Shown here in pieces: positions 10,091 to 31,066 of a stretch of DNA of 31,197 nucleotides; positions within the stretch are counted from its first letter, which is position 1, and every line of letters starts with the position of its first letter. The notes beneath the pieces were generated by a model that searched no databases, was not told the DNA's origin, and was given only the letters and a program-made list of their open reading frames with translations. The DNA lies in IMG/VR virus record IMGVR_UViG_3300014501_000054, positions 1 to 31,197 of that record; one strand, given 5' to 3'. Made by a program: the position numbers and the translations under genes. The DNA is from a virus.

Positions 10091-10911
10091 CAGTTCTGCC
10101 CTATGCGCTCACATACCAACTGGTTACCGACCAACCCGGACTCCTGACCGAACGGATGAATCACGATGTACCGGGAGCCGTTTTGGAGAATGTCAGCATA
10201 GTCCTCTACCGGCGCGTCCGCGTCGAGACTTGCGATGATGTCCCCCTCAAGAAACTGAAACCCCTTCAGCGCCGGTACGAATATGAACCAGCGCGTGAGC
10301 GGCGTCGACGACGGCAATCCATGGATGAGTTCCCCATGGAAGCGCTCGTTGGCTGAGACGCCCATCGGTATCAGCGCGTTGGCCGCGCCCGGCGCCGCGA
10401 GAGCCCAACTGCCATTCGACAGCAGGAGAGGCTGCGCGGAGTTGATATCCGGCGACCAGTAGCCATTCGCGTCCGGAGCGCCCGTCGGACGGAATACGAT
10501 GCCGAGTCGGTTCACGCGCGCGCCGATGTTCTTTCGAATAGGCGCATGAAACGCCAGGCAGATCCCGTTGAACTGCGGAGTCGGGAAAGGAGTGATGTCA
10601 CCCGCGGTAGGATACCCGCTGGTTCCATAGAACGGGTCGCGTTCAACGAAAACATCGCCGGTCACGAAGTTGCTCATGTCGGCGATCATTTCGAAAAACA
10701 GCGATCCCATATCCGGGCCTTCCTTGTGTTCGAGGCCCTTCAGCACTCGGCGGAAGACCGGAAAGTTGCTTCTGATTTTGTTCGCCGCGTCGAGATAGTT
10801 CAGCGCCGCATTGGCTTGGATGCGATAAACGTCGAAGGGCGGACCGAGATGCTTCGCGGCCTTGCCTCTACCACGATCAATTTGCCTTTCGATGTGGTTG
10901 AAGTGGGACAT
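10090..10911 (-). CDS. Uncharacterised neck-region protein
   Basis: A 273-residue product from ATG 10911, overlapping the upstream stop as TGATG. I do not recognise a domain. The N-terminus (FNHIERQIDRGRGKAAKHLG, PPFDVYRIQANAAL) is basic and helical. The middle (VTGDVFVERDPFYG, GICLAFHAPIRKNIGARVNR) and C-terminal parts (RWFIFVPALKGFQFLEGDII, then YADILQNGSRYIVIHPFGQ) are beta-rich. Its location between a head-tail adaptor-like gene and the tail terminator or sheath genes makes a head-completion, neck or tail-terminator role the best inference. Confidence 0.5.
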   Translation of the reverse strand: MSHFNHIERQIDRGRGKAAKHLGPPFDVYRIQANAALNYLDAANKIRSNFPVFRRVLKGLEHKEGPDMGSLFFEMIADMSNFVTGDVFVERDPFYGTSGYPTAGDITPFPTPQFNGICLAFHAPIRKNIGARVNRLGIVFRPTGAPDANGYWSPDINSAQPLLLSNGSWALAAPGAANALIPMGVSANERFHGELIHGLPSSTPLTRWFIFVPALKGFQFLEGDIIASLDADAPVEDYADILQNGSRYIVIHPFGQESGLVGNQLVCERIGQN

Positions 10912-11726
10912 CAGATTGTAGCCATCGTCGGCACGCCGCCGCCGTAATCGTTAAAGTCTTCCCACAGCGGAACCTCGAGATGCCGCGCCAACGCTCGACG
11001 CCAGTAATTATAGAGCTTGATCCGCATCTCGGGCTCATCGGTGCGCGCGGTCCACACGTCCGCTTTCGAAGTATCGAGATTCTGCGTCGTGCCCGCGATC
11101 GCGCCCTCGAGGTAGATCAGAATTGGAATGAAGCCGGTTAGCGTCGTCACGGGGCTCGTCGAATCGTCAACTATCGCTATCGGATCCGTAACCGGGCTGC
11201 CATCTGTGGTGACAGCCGACCCGGTTTGTCCCGTGGCTGCCGCCGCGATGGTGAAAGGCTTGGGATTGAAGAACGCCACTTCCGGCAGAGGGACAGCGTT
11301 CTGCGCGAAAGGTCCCGTTCCGTATGGAGTCACCGCCATGAAGCCTGCACTGATGAGCGCGGGATTCTGAAGAGCCAAGGCCGCCAACTTATTCGAGAGG
11401 CTGACCGGATTATCGCCGAGGACAGCGGTTACGGTCAGTGTGACTGGGCTCACCAGTCCTGCGCCCGACAGAGTGACCGAGACAGTATCGCCGACCGCTG
11501 TCAGACCGAGAATCGAGATCGACCCTACGGCAGATCCGATGATCTGCGCTTCTTCATACGGCTGAAGATTGTTCAGGATGTACTCGAGCCGGCCGTACGC
11601 CTGAAAGTAGCGGAAGCCCTGCCCACCACTGGCTAACGATTGGCCGCCAACCGAAGTACGCGAGACGCCGATCGCCGGATACCGAAGCTGCCGGCGTATC
11701 GTGACCTTTTGTTGTCCGGTCAGCAC
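10911..11726 (-). CDS. Head-tail adaptor-like protein with inserted beta domain
   Basis: A 271-residue product from a GTG start at 11726, directly after the preceding TAG. The N-terminus (LTGQQKVTIRRQLRYPAIG, then GFRYFQAYGRLEYILNNLQ) and C-terminus (AIAGTTQNLDTSKADVWTAR, MRIKLYNYWRRALARHLEVP) form the helical pattern of a common head-tail connector family ('R...GYPa.G......y..LE..l..Ls', 'LE.AI.ga..NLdt..A.vW'). Between them, residues about 64-185 are a beta domain with a Thr/Val-rich start and helix SLSNKLAALALQNPAL, absent from the short versions of this family that I know. Likely sits in the neck under the portal ring. Confidence 0.65.
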   Translation of the reverse strand: MLTGQQKVTIRRQLRYPAIGVSRTSVGGQSLASGGQGFRYFQAYGRLEYILNNLQPYEEAQIIGSAVGSISILGLTAVGDTVSVTLSGAGLVSPVTLTVTAVLGDNPVSLSNKLAALALQNPALISAGFMAVTPYGTGPFAQNAVPLPEVAFFNPKPFTIAAAATGQTGSAVTTDGSPVTDPIAIVDDSTSPVTTLTGFIPILIYLEGAIAGTTQNLDTSKADVWTARTDEPEMRIKLYNYWRRALARHLEVPLWEDFNDYGGGVPTMATI

Positions 11727-13139: not shown

Positions 13140-13985
13140 TTAGTTGGGCAGGCCGTTGAGAATCTGGTCGGGATCGACTCCTCGCTCTCGACAGAATTCC
13201 TCGAACGGCCGTTCCTGCTTCGACGCATTACACGGCAAACAGGCCGGAATGATATTCCCTTTCTCGGTTCGGCCGCCACTCACTAAGGGAACGATGTGCT
13301 CTAAGGTCATGCGCCCCGGCTTGCCGCAATAAGCACACGCCCCACCGAATTTCTCGATCACAGCGATCCAGTCCGCGCGCGTGAACGATACTTCCAAGCT
13401 GGTCTCCACGTCGCCGTTTGCATACCGACGCTCGCGGAGGATGCCCTTCGTCACTCGTTCGCGCTCGCGTATGACCGCGCGCACTTCGGGACGCTTGCGC
13501 CAGACTTTGGCAACCGCTTTTGCAGCAGGCCCACGTCGGCGCTCATTCTGCTTCGCACGACGCGTCTCCGCATGGCGATGGTAGTACGCGTTTCCGCGCT
13601 TCGCAGATTTCTTCCGATTGCACGGAACGCAATAACATCCTCGCCCTTTGCTATTGCGTTTGTCGCGCATGAACTGTTCAAGAGGCAGAACTTCCTTACA
13701 GGAACCGCAGCGCTTCAAACCTTCGGGCAGAGGGGGATGCGCCTCAAGGCGCTCGGCTTTTTGCTTCGCGCGAGACTTCGCCAATATGGCTTTGGCTCGC
13801 CCCGGATTACGCTGGCGAAAACGCCGCTGCGATTCGCGAGAGTGCCGTCGATGGCCCTCGCTGTTCTTATGGCGCGCGTTATCACAGAGTTTACACCACC
13901 CGGACAGGCCGTCGGCACGACGGGGACTTGGATAGAAGTCCGTGTTCGGCTTTTCGGTCTGGCAGCGAGGGCAACTCTTAGTCAT
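13140..13985 (-). CDS. HNH endonuclease with two N-terminal zinc motifs (homing-type)
   Basis: A 281-residue product from ATG 13985, 18 bases after the capsid stop, without a clear ribosome site. Three Cys clusters are visible: residues 5-8 CPRC with 31-34 CKLC; 93-96 CGSC with 119-122 CVPC; and the C-terminal HNH core at 217-253 (CAYC, then LEHIVPLVSGG with H230, NIIPACLPCN). A long basic helical linker (about 125-185) separates them. HNH nucleases with such zinc modules cut double-stranded DNA and often behave as free-standing homing genes in phage structural operons. Insertion directly behind the capsid gene fits. A role in terminase action, as for some HNH proteins, is less likely from position. 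Confidence 0.88.
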   Translation of the reverse strand: MTKSCPRCQTEKPNTDFYPSPRRADGLSGWCKLCDNARHKNSEGHRRHSRESQRRFRQRNPGRAKAILAKSRAKQKAERLEAHPPLPEGLKRCGSCKEVLPLEQFMRDKRNSKGRGCYCVPCNRKKSAKRGNAYYHRHAETRRAKQNERRRGPAAKAVAKVWRKRPEVRAVIRERERVTKGILRERRYANGDVETSLEVSFTRADWIAVIEKFGGACAYCGKPGRMTLEHIVPLVSGGRTEKGNIIPACLPCNASKQERPFEEFCRERGVDPDQILNGLPN

Positions 13986-14003: not shown

Positions 14004-15374
14004 TCAGCCAGCTATCTCAATCACCGCTGCGCGTTTGAACAAGGAGTTACTAGCGGTGGGGATAGTGTCTGTGGTGGCGGTGACGTCGGTCGGGACCGCG
14101 AAGTCTCCGATCCAAGTCCAGGTCTGCGCGATGTTGCGCTGCAGGCGATCGAGCGGTGGCCTCACAATCTGAGCGACGTTATCGATCAGCATGATCTCGC
14201 CGATCGGATTGACGCCCTCTCGATTGAGCCAGATGTCCAGCCCTTCGAAGTTACCCTGCATCAAGCTCTCGGCCCCCATGATGATCGGCCGGCGTACTCG
14301 CACCCCAACGCCGGAGCCGGGATTTTGGACAAAGGTTTCCGTGGTGGGGATGAAAGTTATGCCAAGCAGGCGCACGATATCGCCGCCGCGAAACTCCGGA
14401 GTCTCCTCGCGCCCTGCGAACAGGACTTTGAAGTCCTGATCGGCCCTCAACTGACGCATCGAGGTGTTATCCAAAATCATGTGATAGGTGCCATCGGGCA
14501 TCGGCGGAACGCCGTTATCCAGCAGATAGGCCCGGACATCATCGACGATCGACATGGTGAGAACGTCGGCGCCATTTAGCAAACTCGTCAGGCGTTTGCC
14601 GAACGGCCGGAACACCTTGGGGGCATTGTTCGAGATGACCGAGTCGCCCACCTGGATCGTATTGGCCGCGCCGGCCGCCAAGGTCAGCACTCCCGACAGC
14701 CCACCGGTGATGCTGGTGGAGCTCACGTTCGTCGCGTCCGGGGCGACGCCCGTGACGTTGAGCGCCTGCGTGGCCGTCGCCAAAGTTCCGGAATCGTTGT
14801 ATTCGGTGATCGCCAACGGAGTCGCCGAGCTCACACCCTGCGGTGTGCCGTTTACGAGGACCGTGCCGAAGCCGCGGATATCGTCGACCTGGATCGACGT
14901 CTGCGAGTTGACGGCGAGGACGCGCGAGTTGCCGCTCATGTATGCGGCGAACAAATCATTACGCGCGATGCGCTCCATCGACTGCGCGGCTTGGACGCCG
15001 TTGTTCCGCGAGTTGGCGATAAGCTGATTGGCTATGCCCGCCAATTCGCCCATCAAATCGGTATCGACGGTATCCGCCCATTCCTTCATCGAGAAGCTGT
15101 ACTGCTCGATGGAGAACGTCGAGGGCGTCATCCCATTGTCGAGGTTGGTGCCGACCTGGGTCGGATCGAGCGGTTGCGTGATCGGGGTCTTACGCCCCTT
15201 TCTGGTCATAGTGAGGGTCGCGCCGATCCGCGCTGGGATAGTCTCCTGGACCGCTTCGCGCCGGTAGGCCAGATAGGAATCGAGACCTTCCTCGAGTTCG
15301 CGATCGAGGAAATTTTGCTGCAACATCCCAAGGAGTTGCGGCGGGAAATTTACGAAAGTGCCTGGGCTCGACAT
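14004..15374 (-). CDS. Major capsid protein (HK97 fold)
   Basis: A 456-residue product from ATG 15374 with ACGGAGTTCTCGCAAA upstream. An N-terminal helix and E-loop region (NFLDRELEEGLDSYLAYRRE, then TMTRKGRKTPITQPLDPT) precede the spine helix (QLIANSRNNGVQAAQSMERI). Residues about 170-260 are a beta insertion rich in Thr, Ser and Val. The P and A domains follow (PMPDGTYHMILDNTSMRQLR; GGDIVRLLGITFIPTTETFV), and the C-terminus has IGEIMLIDNVAQIVRPP. This layout matches HK97-fold capsid proteins of the N4-gp56-like or coat-protein type. It is not preceded directly by its scaffold: three signal-peptide genes lie between. About 415 copies per T=7 head would be expected from the fold. Confidence 0.85.
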   Translation of the reverse strand: MSSPGTFVNFPPQLLGMLQQNFLDRELEEGLDSYLAYRREAVQETIPARIGATLTMTRKGRKTPITQPLDPTQVGTNLDNGMTPSTFSIEQYSFSMKEWADTVDTDLMGELAGIANQLIANSRNNGVQAAQSMERIARNDLFAAYMSGNSRVLAVNSQTSIQVDDIRGFGTVLVNGTPQGVSSATPLAITEYNDSGTLATATQALNVTGVAPDATNVSSTSITGGLSGVLTLAAGAANTIQVGDSVISNNAPKVFRPFGKRLTSLLNGADVLTMSIVDDVRAYLLDNGVPPMPDGTYHMILDNTSMRQLRADQDFKVLFAGREETPEFRGGDIVRLLGITFIPTTETFVQNPGSGVGVRVRRPIIMGAESLMQGNFEGLDIWLNREGVNPIGEIMLIDNVAQIVRPPLDRLQRNIAQTWTWIGDFAVPTDVTATTDTIPTASNSLFKRAAVIEIAG

Positions 15375-16016: not shown

Positions 16017-19000
16017 CAGGGCATCCTCGCTTCAAGATATATCCTCGGGTAGATCGGCATCGTCAAAGGCTCGATTGGCCACAGCGCGGGGTCTTCGTAG
16101 ACCGTCGGATAGAGGGGCATCGTGAGATTGATTATTGCCGGCGTCGGCAAGGAGGTCGGCACGGCAGATCCCGTGATCGAGCCGCCTCCATGGATGAGTC
16201 CAACGATGTAGGCCCAAATCCTTCGCAGCGTTGAGATAAGGCCACCGCTCTGGAGTGACGCAGAGCGGTTCAAGGATACGCCGCGCACCGCAGACACCTG
16301 CCCGCCTTCTCCGAACGAAACCGCGCGCATAGCTTGGGCTGTACGCGCCGCCGAGATCGCACCTCCTTTCACGACCGCAGCCGACTTAGGCACGGCAACC
16401 GCTCGCGCGGCGCTCATGCCGCCACCAAGTCCAATGATTGATGCCGAAACCGAAATGAGACTACTTACCGATACAGTCGCGGACACTACCCCGCCCCTTA
16501 TGATCGACGCGGCCCGCGAAATAGTTGTGGCGAAGCTCGATGATATCAAGCCGCCTTTCACGACCGACGCGGACCTCGATACCGATGCCGCACGCGATCC
16601 AGCTATTGTTCCACCCTTCGAGACCGAGCCCGAACGCGCTACCGCCTCCTGACTTGATCCCATGATACTTCCGCCCTTGGAAATCGTCGCACTGCGAATA
16701 GCCGAAATTACAGCGCTCGCTGCTACGCTGCCGCCCTTCGCGATTGTCGCAGCGACAGCAATCACGCTACCTACGATCACGGATGCCACGATCGATCCCC
16801 CTTTGCTGATAGCTCCGCTGACTCCCGCTAAGACTGCTCGGGCAGCCGATAGTGTCCCACCTTTCGAAATGTTAGCCGAACGCGCGACAGTTTCCGTACC
16901 GGCACCCGCGACGGAGCCGCCTTTCGAAATGGAGCCCGCGCGCGTAAGAGTTTCAGCGCTCGAAGTTCCGACCACGCCACCTTGGGCGACCGATGCGTTG
17001 CGTGCGAATGACTTCTGAGAAGAGCCTACGATCGATCCGCCCTTCACAACCGCAGCGCTGCGAGCAATCGCTCCTATACTTTGCGAACTGGTAATCGTGC
17101 CGCCTTTAACGACACTTGCAGATACCGGGACTCTCGGCGCTCTCGATCCTGTGACCGTACCGCCGCCCGCAACCGCCAGAGACGCTGGAGTAAAGTCTAC
17201 CATCTCCCATACGTCTTCAACTTGCGCTGTGCCAGCGCCAACTCCTGTATTTTGAACTCCTATCTGAGAGCTTGCAGCCGTAAGATTTGTGTAGGTCGGG
17301 GTAGATAAGGCGCTACTATAGAAAGCATCGCTGGCAGTCGCATTAATGGCAGTTACGGTGTTGACGCCATTAAAACGTGGAAAGATGTTGATCCCTTTTG
17401 AAGTAGACCACGATGACTTGGCGACTATCGAAGTCTGCGCTGCGTTGATCGTATCTTGCGGCGCGATAATTCCAGTGCCTTCGGTCCCGCTGCCAGCGGC
17501 TCCGAAAGAGCCGAGGTTCATGCTCTGAATCGCGCTCGCCGTAGTTGTACTGACGTTATTAGTTGCGTTGAACGGAGTCTCGGACAGAAGGTTGTAAGCG
17601 GTAGTGCCGCTGCTCTTAGTCCACGCATCGTAGGTCGGCGTTCCTGAGACTCCCTGCCGCGCGATGATGTAGCCGGGGCCGGGGTAGCGGTCGGAGCGGA
17701 CAACTACATCGTCGAACCACAGATTCCCCGAAGTACTAGAGCCGTTAGTCAGAACACCGAGAGATATGTTTCTTAAATTGACGGTGCCTGTATTGGTAGC
17801 ACTGTTGGTATAGACTACTAAGCCGTTAAGTCTTACCTCAACCGCGCCATTGCTCGATGTCGTTCCAGCTACACACTTTACCTCCAGCGGTTCCCAGGTG
17901 TTCGAGGGAACCGTAAAAGTACCTAGCGTACCAGTTAAACTTCGTACACCTAAAGTGATAGTGCCGGTAGAATCCGTTTGCAAGCGCAGCCCACAACTGA
18001 CTTGACTGGACGTATTAAACACCTGGAGAAAAACAAGCTGATTCGTGACAGTGGGGGACACGGCATTCGTATTAAAGTTAAACCCTATATATCCAACTCC
18101 GCCCGAGAAAATAGTCGGACTGTTGGCGAAGGCCGACAACCCCCAGGTAGACTGCTCCGAGTATCCACCGAAGGTTCTCGGCGATGTAACCACGGAAGGC
18201 ACGCCGTTAAGTGTACCCCATTCGCTGAAATCCCCAGTCTCGAAGCCACTCATAAAAACCACGCCCGCCGCATTCGGAGTCGTCGGAGGGTAGCCAGCGC
18301 GGGATAAAGATGCGGCGTTTGAGCTAGTGACCGTTCCGCCCTTTGCTACAGTTCCGCTGACACTGACCGTATTGTACTTGAACGCTGCGACCGCACCTGA
18401 ATTAAGTCCGGTCGTGCTCCAACTGAACGACGGCGTATAAGTACCAGTCGCTGCTGACAATTGGTAAACCACGTCGATAGTAGGAGTCGCCGCGTCGCTA
18501 CCGGTCAACTTGCTCCACAGCGAGCTAGGCACCGTAACCGTCTCGATTGCGGCATGACCTGCGAAAGCGAGAATCAGATCGTAGGCGTTAGTAGTCGCAC
18601 CAGTAGTCGGAGCAACCGAAGTTCCCGTCGCTGCCGCAGCGGTTCCGGTGCCGTCGGTGGTGATGCTTATTCCAAACCATTCTTGAGCTACCGCCGACAC
18701 CGTACCGGCGGTAAAGGCAACTGAGACGGTAGTTCCCGGCGTGACTACGATTGCGGCGAACAACGACGACTGCTGCGCGCCCGCCGTGCTATCTTGCGCG
18801 ATCTTGGTCCACGTCGCGCCCATGCCAGTAACAGACGGCGCTCCCAGGATTCCCGAATCCTGAACCTCGACTGTTACGAGATTGGCGGCGGTAGTAGTAG
18901 CTGGGAAGGTTAGCGTGATCGGACTTACGGCGTTATTAACAACCGCGCTAGATTGAACGAAGTTCGTTGCCGCTTCAAGAGCTACAACTGCCGCTCCATC

Positions 19001-19669
19001 GCCCGTCGCTGTTGTCCACGAGAACGAAGGGTTGAAACTGCCGGTGCTCGTAGCAATCTGATAGCTGGCAGCATCCGCAAAAATAGTCGTTGATGGCGCT
19101 GCGCCGTTCAACCCGTTCCAAGGACTTGACGGCGAAGCGATTGTACCAGTAGCCCCCGCTATCGGGCCAACGCCTACCGCCCCAACAATAAGATCGTTGG
19201 CGTAGGTAGTAGTGATACTCCCGGTCGCTTGAGACGTTGCGCCCGAAGCCGCGTTGCCGCTATTTGAGCCATCAGCAACTAGCGGCGATGCAACGCCCGA
19301 GAATTCTATAAGCTGTGCGCTGCTCGCAGCGCTGGAAATGGTGATCGTCGTAGAGGTGCCAGGCGTGACGACGATCCCGGCGAAAATCCAGACCCTCACG
19401 GCCCCGCTAAGCGATCCTGAATCACGCAGCGTTGTCCAGGTAGCGCCCATCCCCGATATCGAAGCCGTTCTAATGCCACCCATATAGACGATGGCGATGA
19501 CCACGTTTCCGGCTGTGGTATTAACGCCGAAAGTAGGATTAGGACTGCCCGAAGCAACGTTCGCTACCGTCGTCTGCTGAACGAATCCTACGGCGGCAAA
19601 CGCCGTGCGCGGTACCATGATAAGTATCGCGCACAGGAGTAACCAAAAGGTATAACGGACCGCGCGCAT
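16016..19669 (-). CDS. Very large exported multidomain repeat protein
   Basis: A 1217-residue product. I chose ATG 19669 over the adjacent TTG 19672. Residues 1-24 (RYTFWLLLCAILIMVP, ending RTAFA before AVGF) form a Sec signal with a good cleavage site. Two similar beta domains follow (about 25-230 and 235-430; both contain 'GMGATWT' and an '(A/V)YDLI' or 'ANDLIVG' strand). A single repeat unit (about 432-455) comes next, then a LamG/concanavalin-like domain starting near FMSGFETGDFSEWG, a further region to about 824, sixteen or so 20-22-residue repeats, and a tail with LTMPLYP and LTMPIYP duplicated. Domain types suggest glycan binding. It could be a fibre, a surface adhesin or a decoy. No close family recognised. 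Confidence 0.72.
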   Translation of the reverse strand: MRAVRYTFWLLLCAILIMVPRTAFAAVGFVQQTTVANVASGSPNPTFGVNTTAGNVVIAIVYMGGIRTASISGMGATWTTLRDSGSLSGAVRVWIFAGIVVTPGTSTTITISSAASSAQLIEFSGVASPLVADGSNSGNAASGATSQATGSITTTYANDLIVGAVGVGPIAGATGTIASPSSPWNGLNGAAPSTTIFADAASYQIATSTGSFNPSFSWTTATGDGAAVVALEAATNFVQSSAVVNNAVSPITLTFPATTTAANLVTVEVQDSGILGAPSVTGMGATWTKIAQDSTAGAQQSSLFAAIVVTPGTTVSVAFTAGTVSAVAQEWFGISITTDGTGTAAAATGTSVAPTTGATTNAYDLILAFAGHAAIETVTVPSSLWSKLTGSDAATPTIDVVYQLSAATGTYTPSFSWSTTGLNSGAVAAFKYNTVSVSGTVAKGGTVTSSNAASLSRAGYPPTTPNAAGVVFMSGFETGDFSEWGTLNGVPSVVTSPRTFGGYSEQSTWGLSAFANSPTIFSGGVGYIGFNFNTNAVSPTVTNQLVFLQVFNTSSQVSCGLRLQTDSTGTITLGVRSLTGTLGTFTVPSNTWEPLEVKCVAGTTSSNGAVEVRLNGLVVYTNSATNTGTVNLRNISLGVLTNGSSTSGNLWFDDVVVRSDRYPGPGYIIARQGVSGTPTYDAWTKSSGTTAYNLLSETPFNATNNVSTTTASAIQSMNLGSFGAAGSGTEGTGIIAPQDTINAAQTSIVAKSSWSTSKGINIFPRFNGVNTVTAINATASDAFYSSALSTPTYTNLTAASSQIGVQNTGVGAGTAQVEDVWEMVDFTPASLAVAGGGTVTGSRAPRVPVSASVVKGGTITSSQSIGAIARSAAVVKGGSIVGSSQKSFARNASVAQGGVVGTSSAETLTRAGSISKGGSVAGAGTETVARSANISKGGTLSAARAVLAGVSGAISKGGSIVASVIVGSVIAVAATIAKGGSVAASAVISAIRSATISKGGSIMGSSQEAVARSGSVSKGGTIAGSRAASVSRSASVVKGGLISSSFATTISRAASIIRGGVVSATVSVSSLISVSASIIGLGGGMSAARAVAVPKSAAVVKGGAISAARTAQAMRAVSFGEGGQVSAVRGVSLNRSASLQSGGLISTLRRIWAYIVGLIHGGGSITGSAVPTSLPTPAIINLTMPLYPTVYEDPALWPIEPLTMPIYPRIYLEARMP
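16165..17195 (-). repeat. Tandem 20-22-residue coding repeats (KGG repeats)
   Basis: Within the large exported protein, about 16 consecutive units follow the consensus A-S-(V/I)-x-K-G-G-x-(I/V)-x-x-S-x(6)-R-S. Examples are ASVVKGGTITSSQSIGAIAR, GSVSKGGTIAGSRAASVSRS and ATISKGGSIMGSSQEAVARS. Unit length is mostly 20 residues (60 bases), sometimes 21 or 22. Units are similar but not identical, so the repeats are old rather than recent copies. The alternation of short strands and glycine turns suggests a beta-solenoid or trimeric fibre shaft. Confidence 0.85.
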
Positions 19670-19672
19670 CAA

Positions 19673-20641
19673 TTATCCGGCAGTCGAAGTTACAGTTCCC
19701 GTCACATTAATTGTATACCCGGCGGCGATCGGAGCGGCCGTGAAGGTCGCCTCACCTAGAAGCTGCCCGTAGGTCGTGCCCGCGAGCACGTTGCTGTTTG
19801 TCACCAAGATGCCCTGCAAAGTCACAGTCGCATTGCCGGTGAAGACTGCGACCGAGCCTGAGTTGGTTGTGCTGCCAGAAGAAACCGCGCCGCCGACAAA
19901 CTGTGGCCGCGTAGCGTTCGTTACTTGCGTGCTCGTAACTTCAGCGGAACCAGTCCAGCCGTTTGAAGCGAGCGTGTCAGTGATCGCGAACGTGGGTGCG
20001 CTCGCTCCGTAAAACAGACTGACATACATCTTCGAGGCGATGTAGTTGTAGGCCGCCGTGATCGCGTTCGCGTTGGGTCCACCACTGGTGAAGCTGAGCA
20101 GGAACGCGCCTGTCGTATAGGTGAACGTGCTGGTGCTGGCGGTGAAATTCGTGCAAGTGCCAGTGCAGATCATGCCGCCCTTGCCGTTGTCGGTGAACGT
20201 CCCGGTATAGCTCGCGATCGTGAAGCTCACCGTGCCGGGAACGATTAACGACGTTTGTCCGGTCGCGGCCTGGTCTTGTAGCAGAGTTCCCGTCACGGCG
20301 GTCGCCGAACCGGCAGTGTTGCCATCGGCTTCGGCGGAGACAGGGACGCCGTTCAACAGGGTGCTGTTGATATACAAGTTCGCGCCCTGCGTCGTCACCA
20401 TGTTGTGAGTATCGCGAGTCCAAGCCAAGTGACGATCGCGGTCGAAAGCTTCAACATGAAACTTGAAACCGAGTCGCGAGTGGACGCTGGCTTGACGCTG
20501 AACGCCGAGGCCACGATCTACGCTTACCGCGCTTGCGTTGCCGACCTCGGCCGAAACCTGCGCACGCAAGGGCATCAGATGCAGGAGGCTTAGAGAGACA
20601 ATGAGCGCGACGATCAAGCCGGTAATGGTCCGATTTTTCAT
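19673..20641 (-). CDS. Exported beta-rich phage structural-like protein with signal peptide
   Basis: A 322-residue product from ATG 20641 with GGAGAGACCCCTCAC upstream. It ends in TAA directly followed by TTGATG of the next gene. The N-terminus (MKNRTITGLIVALIVSLSLL, then HLMPLRAQVSA) is a Sec signal or signal anchor. A short basic region containing HMVxx-like 'THNMVTTQGANLYINSTLL' follows, then Thr/Gly/Ser-rich beta domains. The C-terminal part (NATRPQFVGGAVSS, then GSVAVFTGNATVTLQGILVT and TTYGQLLGEATF) matches a beta module common in phage virion proteins ('...RP.i.f..a......v.......a.v.l.gi.i'). So a virion-type domain is joined to an export signal. Location in the finished particle or in the host envelope is unresolved. 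Confidence 0.68.
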   Translation of the reverse strand: MKNRTITGLIVALIVSLSLLHLMPLRAQVSAEVGNASAVSVDRGLGVQRQASVHSRLGFKFHVEAFDRDRHLAWTRDTHNMVTTQGANLYINSTLLNGVPVSAEADGNTAGSATAVTGTLLQDQAATGQTSLIVPGTVSFTIASYTGTFTDNGKGGMICTGTCTNFTASTSTFTYTTGAFLLSFTSGGPNANAITAAYNYIASKMYVSLFYGASAPTFAITDTLASNGWTGSAEVTSTQVTNATRPQFVGGAVSSGSTTNSGSVAVFTGNATVTLQGILVTNSNVLAGTTYGQLLGEATFTAAPIAAGYTINVTGTVTSTAG

Positions 20642-20655
20642 GTGAGGGGTCTCTC

Positions 20656-21408
20656 CTACCGTACGTTTCGCAGACTGCGAAGCGTCTGAGCTTTGTGGGC
20701 GTTATAGTCTTTCTGCTCCAAAGTGCCGACATCCTTCGGTGCGCCGCCGCCGCCATCACCAGCCGGGGCGGGACTGCGGGGCCCGGTCCCCCGAGGGGTA
20801 GGACCACCGCCGCCTCCCCCGCCACCGCCAGCAGGCGCAGCAGCCTTGAAGAGATTGGGCTTCTCGGCTTTGAACGCCTCAACAGCCTCGCGGGCACCGG
20901 CGACCTGACCGGAATCGGTTACTTGGACGGTCTCGCGCTTGATGAGAGTGACGAGGTCGGGATCTAAGATACCAGCGGCGGCGGCAGCCTCGCGGATCGC
21001 ACCGTCGATGGTCTGTGCTCGGCGCGCGGTGCGTTCGGTATCGAGTTCTTTTTTGGTATTCTCGTAGAGGGTCTTGAATTCGCCTTTTTCGACGGACGCT
21101 TTGTCGTCGCTGTCTTTTTTCTCTTTCGACAGGCGATCGCGCTCGGCTTCGACAGCGATTCGCTTGGTGCGCTCACTCGCAGATTCGCCGCGGATCTTCT
21201 GGATGTATTCCTGAGCTGCTTTCGGCAACTTGGCGATATCCACCTCGCCGCTCTCAGCGGCTGGCGGCGCTCCGCCTCCGCCTGCGGGTGCGCCACCGCC
21301 GGCAGGAGGATCGCCGCCAGCTCCTCCTCCCCCACCACCTTCGCCTTCGCCCTCAAGCAGCAACATCCGTCGGTCCAACTCTCTACCGAAGAAGCCTTGT
21401 ATGAACAT
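20656..21408 (-). CDS. Capsid scaffolding protein (GP20/DUF4355-like)
   Basis: Start chosen at ATG 21408, which has AAGGGAGAGAAGG just upstream; a TTG 69 bases further up would overlap the previous gene. The 250-residue product has Gly/Pro-rich low-complexity ends (about 19-52 and 193-225) and a charged coiled-coil centre (about 65-125: SERTKRIAVEAERDRLSKEK). It then has AIREAAAAAGILDPDLVTLI and EAFKAEKPNLFK, the closing pattern of phage scaffold proteins. Scaffold proteins shape the procapsid and leave before packaging. No protease domain is visible in it. The capsid gene would be expected next, but three export-signal genes intervene. Confidence 0.75.
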   Translation of the reverse strand: MFIQGFFGRELDRRMLLLEGEGEGGGGGGAGGDPPAGGGAPAGGGGAPPAAESGEVDIAKLPKAAQEYIQKIRGESASERTKRIAVEAERDRLSKEKKDSDDKASVEKGEFKTLYENTKKELDTERTARRAQTIDGAIREAAAAAGILDPDLVTLIKRETVQVTDSGQVAGAREAVEAFKAEKPNLFKAAAPAGGGGGGGGGPTPRGTGPRSPAPAGDGGGGAPKDVGTLEQKDYNAHKAQTLRSLRNVR

Positions 21409-21430
21409 CCTTCTCTCCCTTATTCGACTA

Positions 21431-21739
21431 TCAGTCGAAATATATCCAGACTTCGTGATTGGCGTCAGTGTCGACAAAGTTCACCAGCAGGTACTGACCC
21501 GACTCGACAGCTATGCCGTTTGGCACCGCCAGTGTGTCTGTCCCTGCGGCCGACGCTTTCATATGCGCGATCTCGTCGCCGTTCGTAGTAGCGTTGTTCT
21601 GCGGGGCGACCCAGACCGCAGCATCGAGAGCCGCGACGCCAGCCACGCCTTTAATGGCGACCACTAGCCCCGAACTTTGGAGTTGCGCGCTCGCCGCGAT
21701 CCCCGCCCCGCTAGCTGTTAGTTTGATTGGTAGCGCCAT
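21431..21739 (-). CDS. Small beta-rich protein, possible capsid decoration protein
   Basis: Two adjacent ATG codons (21742 and 21739) follow GGAGGTGG. I prefer 21739 for spacing, giving 102 residues. It overlaps the end of the biotinyl-domain gene by about 30 bases. The sequence (LTASGAGIAASAQLQSSGLV, ALDAAVWVAPQNNATTNGDE, GQYLLVNFVDTDANHEVWIY) is hydrophobic and strand-rich with no cysteine. It fits the general look of head-decoration or stabilising proteins, and its gene lies directly before the scaffold. No family is recognised with certainty. Confidence 0.6.
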   Translation of the reverse strand: MALPIKLTASGAGIAASAQLQSSGLVVAIKGVAGVAALDAAVWVAPQNNATTNGDEIAHMKASAAGTDTLAVPNGIAVESGQYLLVNFVDTDANHEVWIYFD

Positions 21740-21947
21740 CATCCACCTCCGCCAGAACTTGTCCGCGATTCACTACTTGTCCAAGACGTACCTTGAAACT
21801 CAGCCGACCCGCAGCCGGCGTTCTCACCTCGTTCATCATCTTCATGCTCTCGATGCCGAGGATTTTGTCCCCGACCGCGACCTGAGCGCCGTCCTCGCGC
21901 AAAAAGAGCTGTATCGAACCTGTCATTGGGGACTTGATTTGAATCAC
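21711..21947 (-). CDS. Stand-alone biotinyl (BCCP-like) domain protein
   Basis: A 78-residue product from a GTG start at 21947, overlapping the upstream stop as GTGA. The whole chain is one biotinyl/lipoyl-fold domain: KSPMTGSIQLFLREDG (residues 5-20), AVGDKILGIESMKMMNEV (24-41), TPAAGRLSFKVRLGQVVNRG (43-62), QVLAEVDDG (63-71). Lys36 lies in ESMKM, the biotin-attachment motif recognised by biotin protein ligase; lipoyl domains have a DK(A/V) motif instead. The Pro-Gly pairs on both sides and the 'G..V..G..L' turns are all kept, so the domain should fold. No carboxylase or carboxyltransferase gene is nearby. Modification by the host ligase is inferred. The role in a phage head operon is unknown. 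Confidence 0.88.
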   Translation of the reverse strand: MIQIKSPMTGSIQLFLREDGAQVAVGDKILGIESMKMMNEVRTPAAGRLSFKVRLGQVVNRGQVLAEVDDGATNQTNS

Positions 21948-22246
21948 ACTAGGTCGCGCGTTTTCTCTCTAAAGTTGACGTTCACCGTCGGCGGTCCACC
22001 TTGGATCTCGATGATCAGTCCTTCTTCGGCCTCGCACCCAATCACGAACGATCCTGTAAAAATGGACGGCTGATACCAGAGGCTCCGCCCGCGTCCATTG
22101 CTCACCCGGAGTCTCCCCCAGCCGCCCATAATCTCGACCGAGTACAGCTCGCAGGTCCGACGGGCTACGTGGAAGACGCCGACATCATCGATCGTTACCG
22201 ATCGCATGAGGCTTCCGGGCCCGGCCGGTGTGAACAACTCAGTCAC
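21944..22246 (-). CDS. Beta-rich head-region protein, relative of the 22498-23028 product
   Basis: A 100-residue product from a GTG start at 22246, overlapping the preceding gene by 8 bases and the biotinyl gene by 4. Its C-terminal two-thirds (CELYSVEIMGGWGRLRVSNG, WYQPSIFTGSFVIG, EGLIIEIQGGPPTVNVNF) align by eye with the flanks of the 176-residue protein two genes upstream (GLLRGIACTHAG, FDAGFHHGLSIAVAGGTPSV). Both share '.GL.I...GG.P.V.v.'. This looks like a compact beta-sandwich found in phage accessory head proteins. Function unknown; it may be a capsid-bound decoration protein and a candidate partner for the biotinyl protein. Confidence 0.62.
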   Translation of the reverse strand: MTELFTPAGPGSLMRSVTIDDVGVFHVARRTCELYSVEIMGGWGRLRVSNGRGRSLWYQPSIFTGSFVIGCEAEEGLIIEIQGGPPTVNVNFREKTRDLV

Positions 22247-22508
22247 CGAACATCACCCGTTTCCCCATCTCCAACAAATAGAGCTTTTCAGCCCGCGTCA
22301 GATTGTTAGTAACCGTCGCCCATTCGCATTCGTGGTTCTTGTCGGGGTAACTCTGAATCACGACCAAGACTTGCTTGGCGCCCGGAAAATCCTTCTCTAA
22401 ATTCCGATAGAGCCTGGCCAGCGTCGCGTGGACCCCATGCTGCCCGTCGATCGCGTGCAACTTCACAACCTTGCCCGGCTTTCGATGTGCTTTTTGTTTA
22501 GTCGCCAT
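22239..22508 (-). CDS. Hypothetical small basic protein
   Basis: An 89-residue product from ATG 22508, overlapping the preceding gene by 11 bases and the next by 8. The start is very basic (ATKQKAHRKPGKVVKLHA); the middle is helical (HATLARLYRNLEKDFPGAKQ), followed by strands (VLVVIQSYPD, CEWATVTNNL) and a helix (TRAEKLYLLEMGKRVM). The alternation suggests a small alpha-beta fold. No family recognised. It lies in the tightly coupled block between portal and scaffold. Confidence 0.62.
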   Translation of the reverse strand: MATKQKAHRKPGKVVKLHAIDGQHGVHATLARLYRNLEKDFPGAKQVLVVIQSYPDKNHECEWATVTNNLTRAEKLYLLEMGKRVMFGD

Positions 22509-23028
22509 GCGTCAGCCAAGTGATCGTCGCGATGATGTGCACCGATGGGGTTCCGCCGGCAACTGCGATCGAGAGGCCGTGGTGAAACCCCGCATCGAAC
22601 ATCCACATCCCCATTTGATTCAGCCGCATCATCACGCGGCCGTTTCGCGACCAGTAGTCTCCCTCTATTCCGGTGCCCCTGCAGGCTGAACAATGCCGAG
22701 GTCCTACCGGGCAAGGGACGCGTTCGATCGCATGAGCAATCTCCCCGGCACCAAAACACATCGGGCATTGAGCGCCATCGCACCGCGCGCACCGCCAGAT
22801 CTCGTCGCTGCTGCCGGCCGCCATCTGCCGGTGTCCGCGATTCTCGAAGAAGCCATTCGAAGTAGGCACCCCGTCGTGCACCACGAGCATTCCGGATCCC
22901 GCGTGGGTGCACGCGATACCGCGCAACAATCCCGGTCCGGTCGATAAGACGAAGAGCCCATCTTTCTCGATGAGAAAGCCCTTGGACCCGATCTCGGGCT
23001 CGCGTACCTGGATTAGTTGAGGGTTCAC
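22498..23028 (-). CDS. Beta-sandwich head-region protein with inserted DnaJ-type zinc finger
   Basis: A 176-residue product from a GTG start at 23028, overlapping the portal stop as GTGA. The N-terminal part (FVLSTGPGLLRGIACTHAGS, MLVVHDG) and C-terminal part (FDAGFHHGLSIAVAGGTPSV) match a beta-sandwich seen in many phage accessory proteins ('tGpG.l.gi....g.g.l.v.Dg ... f..GL.i...ggtp.v.v'). Between them, residues about 80-120 hold CARCDG, CPMCFGAG and HCSACRGTG, the CxxCxGxG pattern of the DnaJ cysteine-rich zinc finger, probably with Cys106 as a further ligand. The finger could bind partly folded proteins or nucleic acid. The gene directly follows portal, so it is probably tied to head assembly. 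Confidence 0.68.
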   Translation of the reverse strand: MNPQLIQVREPEIGSKGFLIEKDGLFVLSTGPGLLRGIACTHAGSGMLVVHDGVPTSNGFFENRGHRQMAAGSSDEIWRCARCDGAQCPMCFGAGEIAHAIERVPCPVGPRHCSACRGTGIEGDYWSRNGRVMMRLNQMGMWMFDAGFHHGLSIAVAGGTPSVHIIATITWLTHGD

Positions 23029-24713
23029 TTACTTACCTTCTTGCGTGGCGCTCGCCCGCTCGGACGTTTCGGTTTAGGCTGCGAGAGCTTCGACGCGCGC
23101 GCGAGGGCGTCTCCTTCGTCTTCTTTGTCGTGCTCCGGCGTCTCGACCGGCTCCGGAGAAGGATGCCCGCCATCGTCTCCGGTGGGCGCGGGCTCCTGTT
23201 GCGCGGGCATAGTCGCAACGTCCGGCGGAACGTCGAGCATAGTGTCGACCAAGCGGGACGCCTTCTCGATCGTCATAATCGGCCGCATCGCGACCGTGCC
23301 AGTCTGCTGCGCCGCGCCGGGCTTCCCCGGTTTCCCGTCGGCGCCGGGTACAGCAGGCCCAGGAGCAGTTTCGTGCTCGTCCGGAATCGGCGTGGTGAGC
23401 GCAACAAGTCCTTGCCCAAGCTGGAATATCTCCTGCGCGCCCGGCTGGTACGGCTTCGGCCAGTAGTAAGCGAGCGCATCAATGTCGGTGAGACTAACGC
23501 CTTCAAGCAAGGCGTGCTTTACCTTCGCCGCCGCGCGCATCGCCTTGCGCATCAGAGGCAGGGATCCGTTCTCGCCGTACGTCTGGCGCATCTCGTCATA
23601 GAGATCGAGCGGATCGTCGTCGAGCATCTCCATCGCACGTCCGCTTTGGGGACCGCCTATCTTGTCGGGGTCCTTCCTGGAGGCGGCTATCGATTCCAGC
23701 GCAAACTTACGGAGCGTCTCCACGAGCTGCAGGCCGACGGCAATCCCCTGGCCGCTCATTTCGAGGAGCTTCGCGTCACCGCCGCCGATCTGGTTGCCGG
23801 CGGAATCGCGCCGGGTGCCTTCCATCTCGATGACGTGAGTCGGCCCGCGGATCACCATCGCCCCGGTGCGTTCGTCCAGGTCGGCATTCTTGCGTTTGCC
23901 GATTAGCACTACCTCGGGCGAGGCATTGTAGCGGACGCCGCGGCCGAGCGAGCTGATGGTGTAGTCGATATCGATCGCCGTGTTGATCGCATCTTTGAAC
24001 AGGCATTGGCCGTCGATGTCATCCCCGCTCGACAGATTCACGAACCAATGCGCCGGCACGAACCCGAAGTTGTGCGGCGTAGGTTGCTTCAACTCGTCCA
24101 TCGCCAAGAGTGGCTTTTCATCGCCAGGGGGCCATGAGTCCTTGGCTCTCGGTTGGTAGACAATCCATTGCTGCGTGTCGATGTCCGAGACATGCCAATA
24201 GAGGGCGCCATCATCGATCGGCTTGCCCTCATCGTCCTTTTCGACCCCGTAGATCGCCTTGAACTGGTAGCCATAAGTCAGGTAGGCGATGCGCAGCGAG
24301 TTCAGCTCGCCGAGCTTGTCGAATTCCGGCTCGCACCATTTCGCGCGCCAGACCTCGAATACGATGCGCTGCTGTTCGGCGCCATCGGGCTCGATTTTGA
24401 AAGTGACGCAAACGGCGCCGACGGAGCCCCAGACCGCTGCACGAAGGAGCTTCTGCTCGAGGAAGCCCTCGCGCGCGAGTGCGGTAGCCGCTTCCTTGAG
24501 GTCGTCGTTTTCGTGCGCGAAGCGAGGCGCGTGGCGTCCCGCGAAGAGCTTGCGCGCGATCTTCCTGGCCACGAACGCACAGAGATTGTACTGGACCGAC
24601 GGCCTGCGCTCATGCAGCGGGATGTAGTGGTTTCGTTGTCCCGTCTCTTCATAAAACGAATTGGGCAAATGATCGTAGAAGGTTCCGTCTAACAGGCGGT
24701 CGTATAGATCCAA
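23025..24713 (-). CDS. Portal protein (true N-terminus probably further upstream)
   Basis: From the TTG at 24713 the product has 562 residues. It starts DLYDRLLDGTFYDHLPNSFY and contains the wing and stem signatures of SPP1/HK97-type portals (VQYNLCAFVARKIARKLFAG; AAVWGSVGAVCVTFKIEPDG; HWFVNLSSGDDIDGQCLFKD; NTAIDIDYTISSLGRGVRYN). The C-terminal 75 residues are Pro/Glu/Lys-rich and disordered. The dodecameric portal is the head vertex through which terminase pumps DNA. The TTG lacks a ribosome site, and the frame continues upstream as convincing protein (IGNKITFASWATARYKK) to about 24779 without a normal start; see the entry at 24769-24789. A frameshifted start at ATG 24789 would give about 587 residues. 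Confidence 0.9.
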   Translation of the reverse strand: MDLYDRLLDGTFYDHLPNSFYEETGQRNHYIPLHERRPSVQYNLCAFVARKIARKLFAGRHAPRFAHENDDLKEAATALAREGFLEQKLLRAAVWGSVGAVCVTFKIEPDGAEQQRIVFEVWRAKWCEPEFDKLGELNSLRIAYLTYGYQFKAIYGVEKDDEGKPIDDGALYWHVSDIDTQQWIVYQPRAKDSWPPGDEKPLLAMDELKQPTPHNFGFVPAHWFVNLSSGDDIDGQCLFKDAINTAIDIDYTISSLGRGVRYNASPEVVLIGKRKNADLDERTGAMVIRGPTHVIEMEGTRRDSAGNQIGGGDAKLLEMSGQGIAVGLQLVETLRKFALESIAASRKDPDKIGGPQSGRAMEMLDDDPLDLYDEMRQTYGENGSLPLMRKAMRAAAKVKHALLEGVSLTDIDALAYYWPKPYQPGAQEIFQLGQGLVALTTPIPDEHETAPGPAVPGADGKPGKPGAAQQTGTVAMRPIMTIEKASRLVDTMLDVPPDVATMPAQQEPAPTGDDGGHPSPEPVETPEHDKEDEGDALARASKLSQPKPKRPSGRAPRKKVSK

Positions 24714-24794: not shown

Positions 24795-26405
24795 CTACCT
24801 GCCGTAGACAAGACCTGCGTGTAGGCCGGATGACGGCTCCTCATCATCGAATAAACTCATTGGTATGTCTGCGTAAGCGATCACCACGGCGTCGCCGAAG
24901 TCCGGTGAAGCCTCGCCGCGTGTCTTCATGGCCTCCTTGCTCTCTGCTCGCATTCTCCCATCGGACCCGTATTCGTATTTGCGCGAGACCAATTCGTCCA
25001 TCAGGTCTTTGTCAGCGAAGACCTCGCCGGAGATGTCCCCGGCTTCGAAGCCTCGTGCTGTCAGCGCCCACCATTCGGTAGTAGCGTTGGTGTATTGGAT
25101 GGGATTGCGCGCGGTGCGATGCTCGATCATTTCGTGGACCGTGACGGTACGTCGGCCATCCACGCGCCATTCTTCACCGTCGAAGATCTCCTTGCAGCGA
25201 TCGTAGGCGCCCGCACCGAGGCCAACTGCGTCGATTTTGACTCGAATCAGCGGGCAGGGCAGATTCGCGGGGGCCACTTCCTTCCAAAAGGCACGGATCT
25301 TTGAAATAAACTGGATAATGCGGCCGCACGTAACCATCAAGCCCTGCTGACCGTACTTCTCCCAAGCGAATGCGTTTCCCTGTGCAGGCCGATCGCCGAT
25401 GCGCGCGACAAAGACCGTGTTCGCGCTGCCATAGCGCGCGACGTCGACACCGACGTCGATAGTCGCGCCTTCCAGATTGCGAGTCGCCGCCGCGGCGCGC
25501 TCGACCCACGAGATCGCGATGAAGGTGTCCTCCGTCCGATCCGGAAACTGCCCGAGCACACGCGCCTGCCAGAGCGGATGATCTTCGCCCCATTTGTAGA
25601 AGTCGCTCTTGATATTTGCCGGGGTTACAACGCCATCGATACTGATCGGCATCGTGAGGAGGCTATCGAGGAACCGCTCCATGATTTCTTTGCGCGTGCC
25701 GAGATCCTGTTCAAATATTCGCGGTGGAGGGACTGCATTTACGTTCGGGGTATCGAATTGCGAAATGTGATAACAGACCCAGTCTTTACTCTTGAAGGCT
25801 CCGAAGAACGGCCCTTTGAGTGTGGTCGGATTGCCGATTTTCAACCAGCGAGTGAAGGCGCCTTTGAGAATCGAGTTGATCCCTTCGTCGACCGGCTCAC
25901 TGATGCCGGCGGCCTCATCCTCTATCACCAAAATATGTGAGTTGTGATAGCCCTGAAATTGGTTGACGTCGTATTCTTTCGAGGCGAAGCCGACGCCGTA
26001 GTGCCTAATGCCCCTTCTCTTGAGCGCGGGAAATTCCCAACTCGCGGTGAACAGTTCGCCGCCCAGATCATGCCCATTCTCTTTGGCCTTGCCAGCGACG
26101 ACCTGAATTTCTTTCCAGAGGAGGTCTTTCACTTGACGCATGTTCGGCGCGGTAGTCACCACGGTCGCAGGGGAGAAGACGCTTAGGAACCAGGCCGCCA
26201 ACCGAGCAGCGAGCCACGTTTTCCCAATTCCATTCCCGGACGCGACCGCCACCCGCGGGTGCATCGCAACCGCCTGCATGACCTCGACCTGCCTAGCCCA
26301 AGCCTTTTCGCCAGTCGTCTTTTCGAGCCAATAGTCAGGACAGGCGCGGGTCAGAATAACCTCCTGCTCGGCGGAAGATAGTGATTCGAAACTCTCAGTA
26401 GCCAT
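24795..26405 (-). CDS. Terminase large subunit (ATPase and nuclease)
   Basis: A 536-residue product from ATG 26405, overlapping the preceding gene by 11 bases. N-terminal ATPase: Walker A SGNGIGKT at 56-63, Walker B HILVIEDEA at 157-165 with catalytic acid E164, coupling motif about KIGNPTT at 189-195. C-terminal RNase-H-type nuclease: D321 in VGVDVARYG, D392 in VKIDAVGLG, D505 in PDFGDAVVIA, the three acidic positions expected. It packages DNA into the procapsid through the portal and cuts the concatemer. All key residues are present and length is normal, so the enzyme should be active. The probable small subunit is three genes upstream. Confidence 0.95.
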   Translation of the reverse strand: MATESFESLSSAEQEVILTRACPDYWLEKTTGEKAWARQVEVMQAVAMHPRVAVASGNGIGKTWLAARLAAWFLSVFSPATVVTTAPNMRQVKDLLWKEIQVVAGKAKENGHDLGGELFTASWEFPALKRRGIRHYGVGFASKEYDVNQFQGYHNSHILVIEDEAAGISEPVDEGINSILKGAFTRWLKIGNPTTLKGPFFGAFKSKDWVCYHISQFDTPNVNAVPPPRIFEQDLGTRKEIMERFLDSLLTMPISIDGVVTPANIKSDFYKWGEDHPLWQARVLGQFPDRTEDTFIAISWVERAAAATRNLEGATIDVGVDVARYGSANTVFVARIGDRPAQGNAFAWEKYGQQGLMVTCGRIIQFISKIRAFWKEVAPANLPCPLIRVKIDAVGLGAGAYDRCKEIFDGEEWRVDGRRTVTVHEMIEHRTARNPIQYTNATTEWWALTARGFEAGDISGEVFADKDLMDELVSRKYEYGSDGRMRAESKEAMKTRGEASPDFGDAVVIAYADIPMSLFDDEEPSSGLHAGLVYGR

Positions 26406-29779: not shown

Positions 29780-31066
29780 TTATCCTCCGTTAGTTACGAA
29801 TTTTCTCGGGTAGTCGACGCTCGGAACCGGGTTTCCGAGAAACCGGCAGAGATCTGTCCACGCCGGCGTGCGCATCACCAGTAAATCATCGGGCCGATTC
29901 TTGAAATGCTCGATCACTTCCGCGTTGTGCCAACGATAGCGCGCCCGGAAGGTGTGGTAGTCGAAGGTCTTGCGCCCGTAAATCGCCTGATGGATCACGT
30001 TGCTGAACGGGTAGACGTCCCATTCCCACCGAAACGGATTCTTGTACGAAAAGTGATCGCGCACGCTGCGCAGCCATTCGGCTTCATTCCGAATCGTCAG
30101 GATGAACTTCGATCCCGGATACGCGCGATCCATCTCTTTGTAGAGAATGCTAATCGGCAGGTCCGACGCCGCATAAAACTTCTCCAAGGTCGGAGCAATC
30201 CCTCCCGCGCGCACTTCATCCCAGACGCTTTTGGCCCAAGCCCCCGACTCCCAGTGAGCGCTCTCGTAACCCAGGATTTGAAGAGCGGCGTGCAGCGAGC
30301 TGGTCGCGGTCTTGTGCAACCCGATTCCGAAGATGCGCGTCGGTATCGGGCCGAGTTGCAGGGCGCCACCGGGCCCGAGAACCTCGCCCATGCCAAACTT
30401 TCCAAAGTTGGCGACCGCGGTCTCCGGCGGCGGCAGTTCCGCCTCTTCTCCTAACGCGTTCTCACGCGCCTCGGGGTACTCCTTAAAACGCACGCCATCG
30501 CCATGCGGGATCGCCGCCAGATAGTTTCGATCGATCTGGACGGGCCGGTAGCCCAAGTGACAGAGTCGGGCATTGAAATCCTTATCGTCAGGCCCCCAAG
30601 TGTCGTACTTCTTCTCATCGTAACCGCCGGCTTTGAGAAACGCCTGCGGCGTCACCGCGATCTGGCCGCTGACCCCCCGCATTTTGCGGCCGAGACCCTG
30701 CACCAGCCCGGACCAGAGAAACGTGTCGCTCTCAAATCTCTCCGCGACAAAGTCTTCGAACCCGGCGCCGAGGTAGTTATCCGCGTCGAGGTTTACCAAG
30801 ACGTCGGCGCCTTCCAAGATTCCGAGCCGGTGCGCCATGTTTTTCGCGTGGGCCATGCGGAACGGTCCGTCGGTCGGATAATGATAGACAACTAGCCGTC
30901 CGTACTTGAAGTCCCGGTAAGGCATCAGCACAGATGTCAAATCATCTTGGCTGCCATAGTCCAGAACCAGGAACGTCGATCGAGGATTGTCCTCCAAGTT
31001 CTTCGGCAGCGTTCTGGCCAGATGGGCGGCACGATTCTTACAGGTCGTCACGAACACGATCTTCAT
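29780..31066 (-). CDS. Fused glycosyltransferase (GT-A) and sulfotransferase
   Basis: A 428-residue product from ATG 31066. Residues 1-215 are a GT-A glycosyltransferase: KIVFVTTCKNRAAHLARTL at 2-20, the metal-binding DxD-type NLDADN at 92-97, and TWGPDDKDFNARL at 156-168, as in galactosyltransferase-type enzymes. Residues 244-428 are a sulfotransferase: the 5'-phosphosulfate loop GLHKTATSSLHAAL at 249-262 and the 3'-phosphate strand FILTIRN at 321-327 with S334 following. The first would add a sugar from a nucleotide sugar, the second sulfate from PAPS. One chain with both suggests making a sulfated glycan on one acceptor. The acceptor is unknown: a virion protein, phage product or host envelope. 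Confidence 0.82.
   Translation of the reverse strand: MKIVFVTTCKNRAAHLARTLPKNLEDNPRSTFLVLDYGSQDDLTSVLMPYRDFKYGRLVVYHYPTDGPFRMAHAKNMAHRLGILEGADVLVNLDADNYLGAGFEDFVAERFESDTFLWSGLVQGLGRKMRGVSGQIAVTPQAFLKAGGYDEKKYDTWGPDDKDFNARLCHLGYRPVQIDRNYLAAIPHGDGVRFKEYPEARENALGEEAELPPPETAVANFGKFGMGEVLGPGGALQLGPIPTRIFGIGLHKTATSSLHAALQILGYESAHWESGAWAKSVWDEVRAGGIAPTLEKFYAASDLPISILYKEMDRAYPGSKFILTIRNEAEWLRSVRDHFSYKNPFRWEWDVYPFSNVIHQAIYGRKTFDYHTFRARYRWHNAEVIEHFKNRPDDLLVMRTPAWTDLCRFLGNPVPSVDYPRKFVTNGG

Follow-up and report, generated by a model that had tools for sequence, protein, structure and literature searches.

The window analysed here is a stretch of 31,197 nucleotides, held as a virus record in IMG/VR (IMGVR_UViG_3300014501_000054). 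All of its major genes lie on the minus strand (Table 1), and the block from portal to scaffold has the order p176-p89-p100-biotinyl-p103, the biotinyl gene being referred to below as BIOT. The identities of the portal and capsid proteins depend on PHROGs matches, while that of the scaffold, already assigned to this block by the first-pass annotation, is backed by PF06810. A region of variable surface-protein genes separates the scaffold gene from the major capsid protein gene. The first-pass annotation had given the position of the BIOT reading frame correctly; the strand was missing and is the minus strand, with the GTG start at 21947 and the stop codon ending at 21711. The overlaps it had described, at GTGA and by about 30 bases, were borne out: BIOT overlaps the upstream 100-aa gene by 4 nt, its GTG start sharing the stop of p100, and the downstream 103-aa gene by 32 nt.

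Table 1. Genes in the portal-to-capsid part of the window and their assignments
Feature	Position	Strand	Basis
Terminase large subunit	24795..26405	-	PHROGs
Portal protein	23025..24713	-	PHROGs phrog_145; portal matches in relatives too
p176, co-occurring with p100 and BIOT; Cys-rich zinc-finger-like insert in this copy	22498..23028	-	
p89, small protein, matching nothing in Pfam or PHROGs	22239..22508	-	
p100, predicted all-beta jelly roll, GTGA-coupled to BIOT	21944..22246	-	AF2, Foldseek, homologues adjoining BIOT
BIOT, putative stand-alone biotin-acceptor domain of 78 aa, GTG start, Lys36 in ESMKMM	21711..21947	-	
p103, small protein after BIOT	21431..21742	-	
Capsid scaffolding protein	20656..21477	-	PF06810
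Major capsid protein, marker of the clade	14004..15374	-	PHROGs

Some further features of the window stand apart from BIOT. The insert in p176 (window 22498-23028) resembles the Cys-rich zinc finger of DnaJ (CARCDGAQCPMCFGAGE...CSACRGTG), and the p176 homologues at two related loci, L005 and L027, are without it. Between the scaffold and capsid genes, three consecutive reading frames (20641-19673, 19672-16016 and 16016-15639) begin with hydrophobic, Sec-signal-like N-termini (MKNRTITGLIVALIVSLSLL, MMRAVRYTFWLLLCAILIMV and MKTLKRLGFSIPLALLLAF), which is odd for a head operon; a similar signal-like protein is encoded at L027 13637-14173. At 29780-31066, a 428-aa product looks by eye only like a fusion of a glycosyltransferase with a sulfotransferase-like part (GLHKTATSSLHAALQILGYES), an unusual protein for a phage.

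The 78-aa BIOT product (MIQIKSPMTGSIQLFLREDGAQVAVGDKILGIESMKMMNEVRTPAAGRLSFKVRLGQVVNRGQVLAEVDDGATNQTNS) is, by its sequence, a member of the Biotin_lipoyl family (Pfam PF00364; E=4.1e-12, 46.2 bits, the cut-off being 22.1). The alignment pairs residues 3-67 with positions 2-72 of the 73 in the profile, and this nearly full-length match agrees with the first-pass description of a complete biotin-attachment domain, with the acceptor Lys36 inside ESMKM and two flanking Pro-Gly turns (P7-x-x-G10 and P44-x-x-G47). In NCBIfam and the PDB, the window copy matched biotin carrier domains; its best NCBIfam score, 41.8 bits, misses every BCCP/carrier equivalog cut-off, and PHROGs offered no clear family. 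Comparison of a profile of the BIOT family with cellular biotinyl domains gave E 1.4e-23, versus E 1.8e-10 with lipoyl domains, and the lipoyl D-K-(A/V) motif is absent, M-K being found in 16 of 16 copies. On these profile and motif grounds the family groups with biotinyl rather than lipoyl domains. Against solved structures, the top matches of the family profile were biotin carboxylase carrier domains, the best being that of the alpha subunit of 3-methylcrotonyl-CoA carboxylase, and the structure 1z6h of the Bacillus subtilis protein BLAP was also among them. Since AF2, given an alignment of only 3 rows, modelled BIOT at pLDDT 35, we base the assignment of a barrel-sandwich fold on the profile matches to solved biotinyl domains.

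Fifteen further divergent copies of BIOT were found at the same locus in related IMG/VR phages. L005 came from a scan with the biotin profile, L007 from a capsid-protein scan and L027 from a portal scan. A wider scan with the capsid protein gave 80 loci, and among these an ORF profile search located BIOT in L038, L041, L042, L044, L046, L047, L049, L050, L051, L052 and L053/L054; in L040 the gene lies just beyond the stretch covered by that search. The order in these relatives is portal, p176, p100, the biotinyl gene, a small beta protein, scaffold and major capsid protein, and the slot of p103 is filled by a protein of 114-261 aa that follows BIOT and precedes the scaffold. The BIOT reading frame is not a chance one, because 16 distinct homologues share this place in the head gene module and all of them match PF00364.

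BIOT is present in every relative that shares 49% or more of its capsid-protein residues and has the locus covered, a count that leaves out L043 and L048, whose records begin too near the scaffold gene, and L045, in which about 1.6 kb upstream of the scaffold gene are present and BIOT is absent from them. It is absent from all 61 portal-to-capsid loci of more distant relatives (about 60). In Komagataeibacter phage phiKX1 (42% capsid identity), the portal, scaffold and capsid genes adjoin without such a block. A capsid-protein tree of 57 rows places the BIOT phages, together with L043, L045 and L048, in one group (SH-aLRT 81), and a single change suffices to account for the distribution of BIOT on it. 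Scans of viral contigs by 8-mers, with single-sequence queries for BIOT, portal and TerL, returned nothing, nor did an exact DNA pattern search. Among 395 genomes of the phylum of the metagenome-assembled genome discussed below, we recovered only the contig C444 itself, a prophage (G103) that does not carry BIOT, and one weak match.

This distribution bears on the possibility that BIOT is a host fragment or a contamination in one phage. What could suggest it is that the matches in GenBank phage records, where opened or annotated, were bacterial carboxylase, decarboxylase and dehydrogenase genes in mislabelled records. The explanation is refuted by synteny, with sixteen divergent copies at a single phage locus, and we regard its probability as negligible; the first-pass statement that BIOT is locked into the head block and is no stray host fragment stands. 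The INPHARED tblastn matches were rejected as phage copies of BIOT, those opened or annotated being operons of bacteria whose records are mislabelled or unverified. MT835614, MT837082, MT835556 and OQ572412 contain bacterial biotin decarboxylase or accB-accC operons, and so are mislabelled or include host DNA; the decarboxylase operons are of the oxaloacetate decarboxylase type, and the accB-accC pair is that of 'Pseudomonas phage Y11'. Matches in records of chromosome size were bacterial carboxylase or dehydrogenase genes. L006 was also discarded, as the edge of a Mu-like prophage next to a host carrier gene.

A near-identical contig of 75,384 bp (PMOH01000316.1, here C444) is binned in a 'Deltaproteobacteria' metagenome-assembled genome (isolate palsa_1089). 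It is 99.2-99.7% identical to the window over most of the length and about 95-98% identical near one end. As both of its ends lie within similar pentapeptide-like repeat coding sequence, C444 probably represents an almost entire genome, interrupted at the repeat. A Pfam scan of 36 other C444 proteins detected an integrase, baseplate J and DNA methylases. The integrase suggests that the phage is probably temperate, and its tail is presumably contractile. Between the window and C444, 14 of the 237 bases of BIOT differ (dN/dS about 0.21), and the motif is unaffected. Divergence is raised over a short stretch made up of p100 and BIOT, next to a nearly identical upstream flank, which suggests that the two genes were exchanged as a unit. 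The bin of C444 contains a single biotin ligase, on a different contig (C199), and the bin organism may be the host of the phage, as a candidate only. Two other differences from C444 were seen in the window. Directly after the capsid gene lies an ORF for an HNH-type endonuclease (281 aa, 13985-13140), about 701 bp of which (13268-13968) are absent in C444, where window positions 13267 and 13969 map to the adjacent positions 23951 and 23952; with this clean gap, the occupied and the empty site of a recent insertion are both visible. At 16130-20652, where the window encodes repetitive 1218-aa and 322-aa proteins, C444 has a different sequence with a 664-aa protein between flanks about 99% identical, and on this comparison the interval is a surface-protein cassette of the head operon that has been exchanged.

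If BIOT is a biotin acceptor, what does selection preserve in it? In the alignment of the 16 distinct copies (69 filled columns; mean pairwise identity about 35% for 15 of them), the number of residue types per column has a median of 5, and only five columns are invariant: G20, E33, M35, K36 and G47. E-x-M-K thus supplies three of the five, including the acceptor lysine, and the chance that all three named motif columns would be invariant is about 2e-4. Lys is conserved at no other column, and Glu, Met and Lys are the sole invariant residues other than Gly. The first-pass annotation would have been refuted by homologous phages that lack the lysine or its motif at this locus, and the outcome speaks for it: E-x-M-K is kept in all 16 copies, Met preceding the acceptor at -1 and Glu at -3. 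The residue at +1 varies (M in 7, T in 6, and S, F and V in 1 each); the window copy keeps its Met, and Met/Leu at this position is not a family-wide feature. In carboxylase carriers, +1 Met of the AMKM motif is nearly universal (PMC2964542, PMC3048393). Because E-x-M-K is invariant, +1 Met is variable and the profile is of the biotinyl type, we infer that selection maintains the modification and not carboxyl transfer. The AMKS acceptor of Sulfolobus tokodaii is reportedly not biotinylated by E. coli BirA (PMC3048393), so that some copies of BIOT may need a particular ligase and the ligase of the host matters.

Could the domain work without being modified at all? BIOT might be a small building block of head or tail, in which E-x-M-K serves folding or contacts. 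Barrel-sandwich relatives free of modification do exist, the HlyD_3 and RnfC_N profiles also match some BIOT copies, and the relaxed +1 residue would fit. Such relatives, however, typically lose the Lys motif, and the invariance of precisely the Lys, Met and Glu of the presumably exposed hairpin, in a family this divergent, makes this explanation rather improbable.

The variable +1 position speaks against a role for BIOT in a carboxylase, which is unlikely. A phage-borne carboxyl carrier serving a host carboxylase, as an auxiliary metabolic gene, would account for the closeness of ESMKMMNEV in the window copy to bacterial carboxyl carriers, but 9 of the 16 copies have no +1 Met, and the position in the head operon is conserved. 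Furthermore, no carboxylase subunit was found among the operon proteins scanned or among the 36 further proteins of C444, a subset of that contig, in keeping with the first-pass remark that none is nearby. We consider such a metabolic carrier very improbable.

The evidence for a function in the head comes from the neighbouring genes. p100, 54% identical between the window and L005, stands directly before BIOT in nearly all loci, and in most of them its stop is at most 4 nt from the BIOT start: the 4-nt overlap recurs in the window, L005, L041, L049, L050 and L053/L054, and the spacing is within 2 nt in L038, L044 and L047. The adjacency is broken in L027, L046, L052 and L040; in L027, a DNA methyltransferase gene (252 aa, 10647-11405) sits between p100 and BIOT, inside the head block. 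Wherever a biotinyl locus has a portal match (12 loci), p176 and p100 are both present; of the 61 covered loci without BIOT, 2 have both. The AF2 model of p100 is an eight-stranded jelly roll (pLDDT 73), and with Foldseek and VIA-align it matches nucleoplasmin cores, the HFTV1 turret and the cement protein of phage KHP40 (Z 7.5-8.8). These matches, of middling strength, are suggestive only of a likeness to virion turret and cement proteins. At two loci that carry no BIOT (L028 3667-4503 and L030 4216-4866), relatives of p176 and p100 are fused into proteins of 216-278 aa in the portal-scaffold interval. A paralogy of p176 and p100, suggested by their visual likeness and by these fusions, was considered and dropped, the profile comparison being weak.

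The strongest rival to a function in the head, and a serious one that we nevertheless judge unlikely, is a late sink for the host biotin ligase. A burst of unmodified acceptor late in infection would occupy ligase and biotin and starve acetyl-CoA carboxylase, with no need for BIOT in the virion; in hosts with a BirA-type repressor, it would also switch on biotin synthesis. BIOT looks a good ligase substrate, and the phages encode no ligase of their own in the records searched, which also yielded no avidin gene. The protein-bound biotin pool of E. coli, reportedly only about 200 molecules per cell, is small enough to be easily overwhelmed (PMC2964542), unmodified acceptor raises transcription of the E. 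coli biotin operon (PMC4016012), and a variable +1 residue suits a substrate that need not be carboxylated. On the other hand, BIOT keeps its place in the late head module, in coupling with the gene of a structural protein, which is not where one expects genes for early host take-over, and it is strictly linked to p100 and p176.

The data favour a partnership of BIOT with p100 in the head over a role in a carboxylase: it would be made together with p100, a predicted jelly roll, and its position between p100 and the scaffold is conserved. As a full account, a dedicated biotin acceptor that is modified by the host ligase and works with p100 in the head or its assembly is our tentative choice, which we put slightly short of an even chance. 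Late in infection, translation of BIOT would be coupled to that of p100, and the biotin protein ligase of the host would attach biotin to the invariant Lys of E-x-M-K (Lys36). Biotinylated BIOT would then join p100 and its neighbours in the head or in head assembly, for example in a head-surface or vertex complex with biotin as the binding group, and the phage would make no use of it as a CO2 carrier. The biotinylation, the location in the head and the binding partner of the biotin are all presumed in this scheme. A biotin pool as small as that reported for E. coli would be strained by a fully biotinylated, high-copy shell and favours a low copy number, as at a vertex, or partial modification. 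That the covalent biotin itself has a function within the particle, as a docking group or structural latch, giving a naturally biotinylated virion and a use of biotin outside carboxyl transfer, is a more doubtful proposition that we nonetheless consider possible.

The closest known counterpart, the stand-alone BLAP of B. subtilis (YngHB), resembles the NCBIfam families PRK05889 and PRK08225 and accepts biotin from BirA in vitro (PMC4016012). Like BIOT, it is a biotinyl domain of 70-80 aa with no fused carboxylase; its gene is bacterial and chromosomal, whereas BIOT lies in a phage head operon. From the PRK05889/PRK08225-type acceptors, BIOT differs in scoring far below the equivalog cut-offs, and its family in allowing T, S, F and V at +1. 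The carrier domains of PCC, MCC, pyruvate carboxylase and the 1.3S subunit of transcarboxylase belong to the same sequence family and share E-x-M-K and the P/G turns; in the BIOT family, +1 Met is not conserved, and for BIOT no biotin carboxylase or carboxyltransferase partner was detected among the proteins scanned. Phage decoration and cement proteins such as the KHP40 cement and the HFTV1 turret, which the p100 model matches, are likewise encoded near scaffold and capsid genes, but none with a biotin-acceptor domain was found in our searches. In filamentous phage, engineered tags receive biotin from BirA in vivo on structural proteins (PMC3256129); they are artificial peptides, in contrast to the natural full domain of these tailed phages. 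Apart from engineered tags, the literature and phage records searched held no natural biotinylated or biotin-acceptor phage protein, which accords with the first-pass remark that no role had been described for such a protein in a tailed-phage virion.

In known biology, protein-bound biotin is a carboxyl carrier, and we know of no natural phage particle that uses it. An invariant acceptor Lys combined with a free +1 position in a head module suggests that the cofactor does something else here. Were the virion biotinylated, its assembly would be tied to the vitamin supply of the host, and such particles could be captured naturally by streptavidin and selected from soil samples. If BIOT is a sink for the ligase, it would represent a new phage route to host lipid synthesis. 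Under either reading, the BIOT family is now defined.
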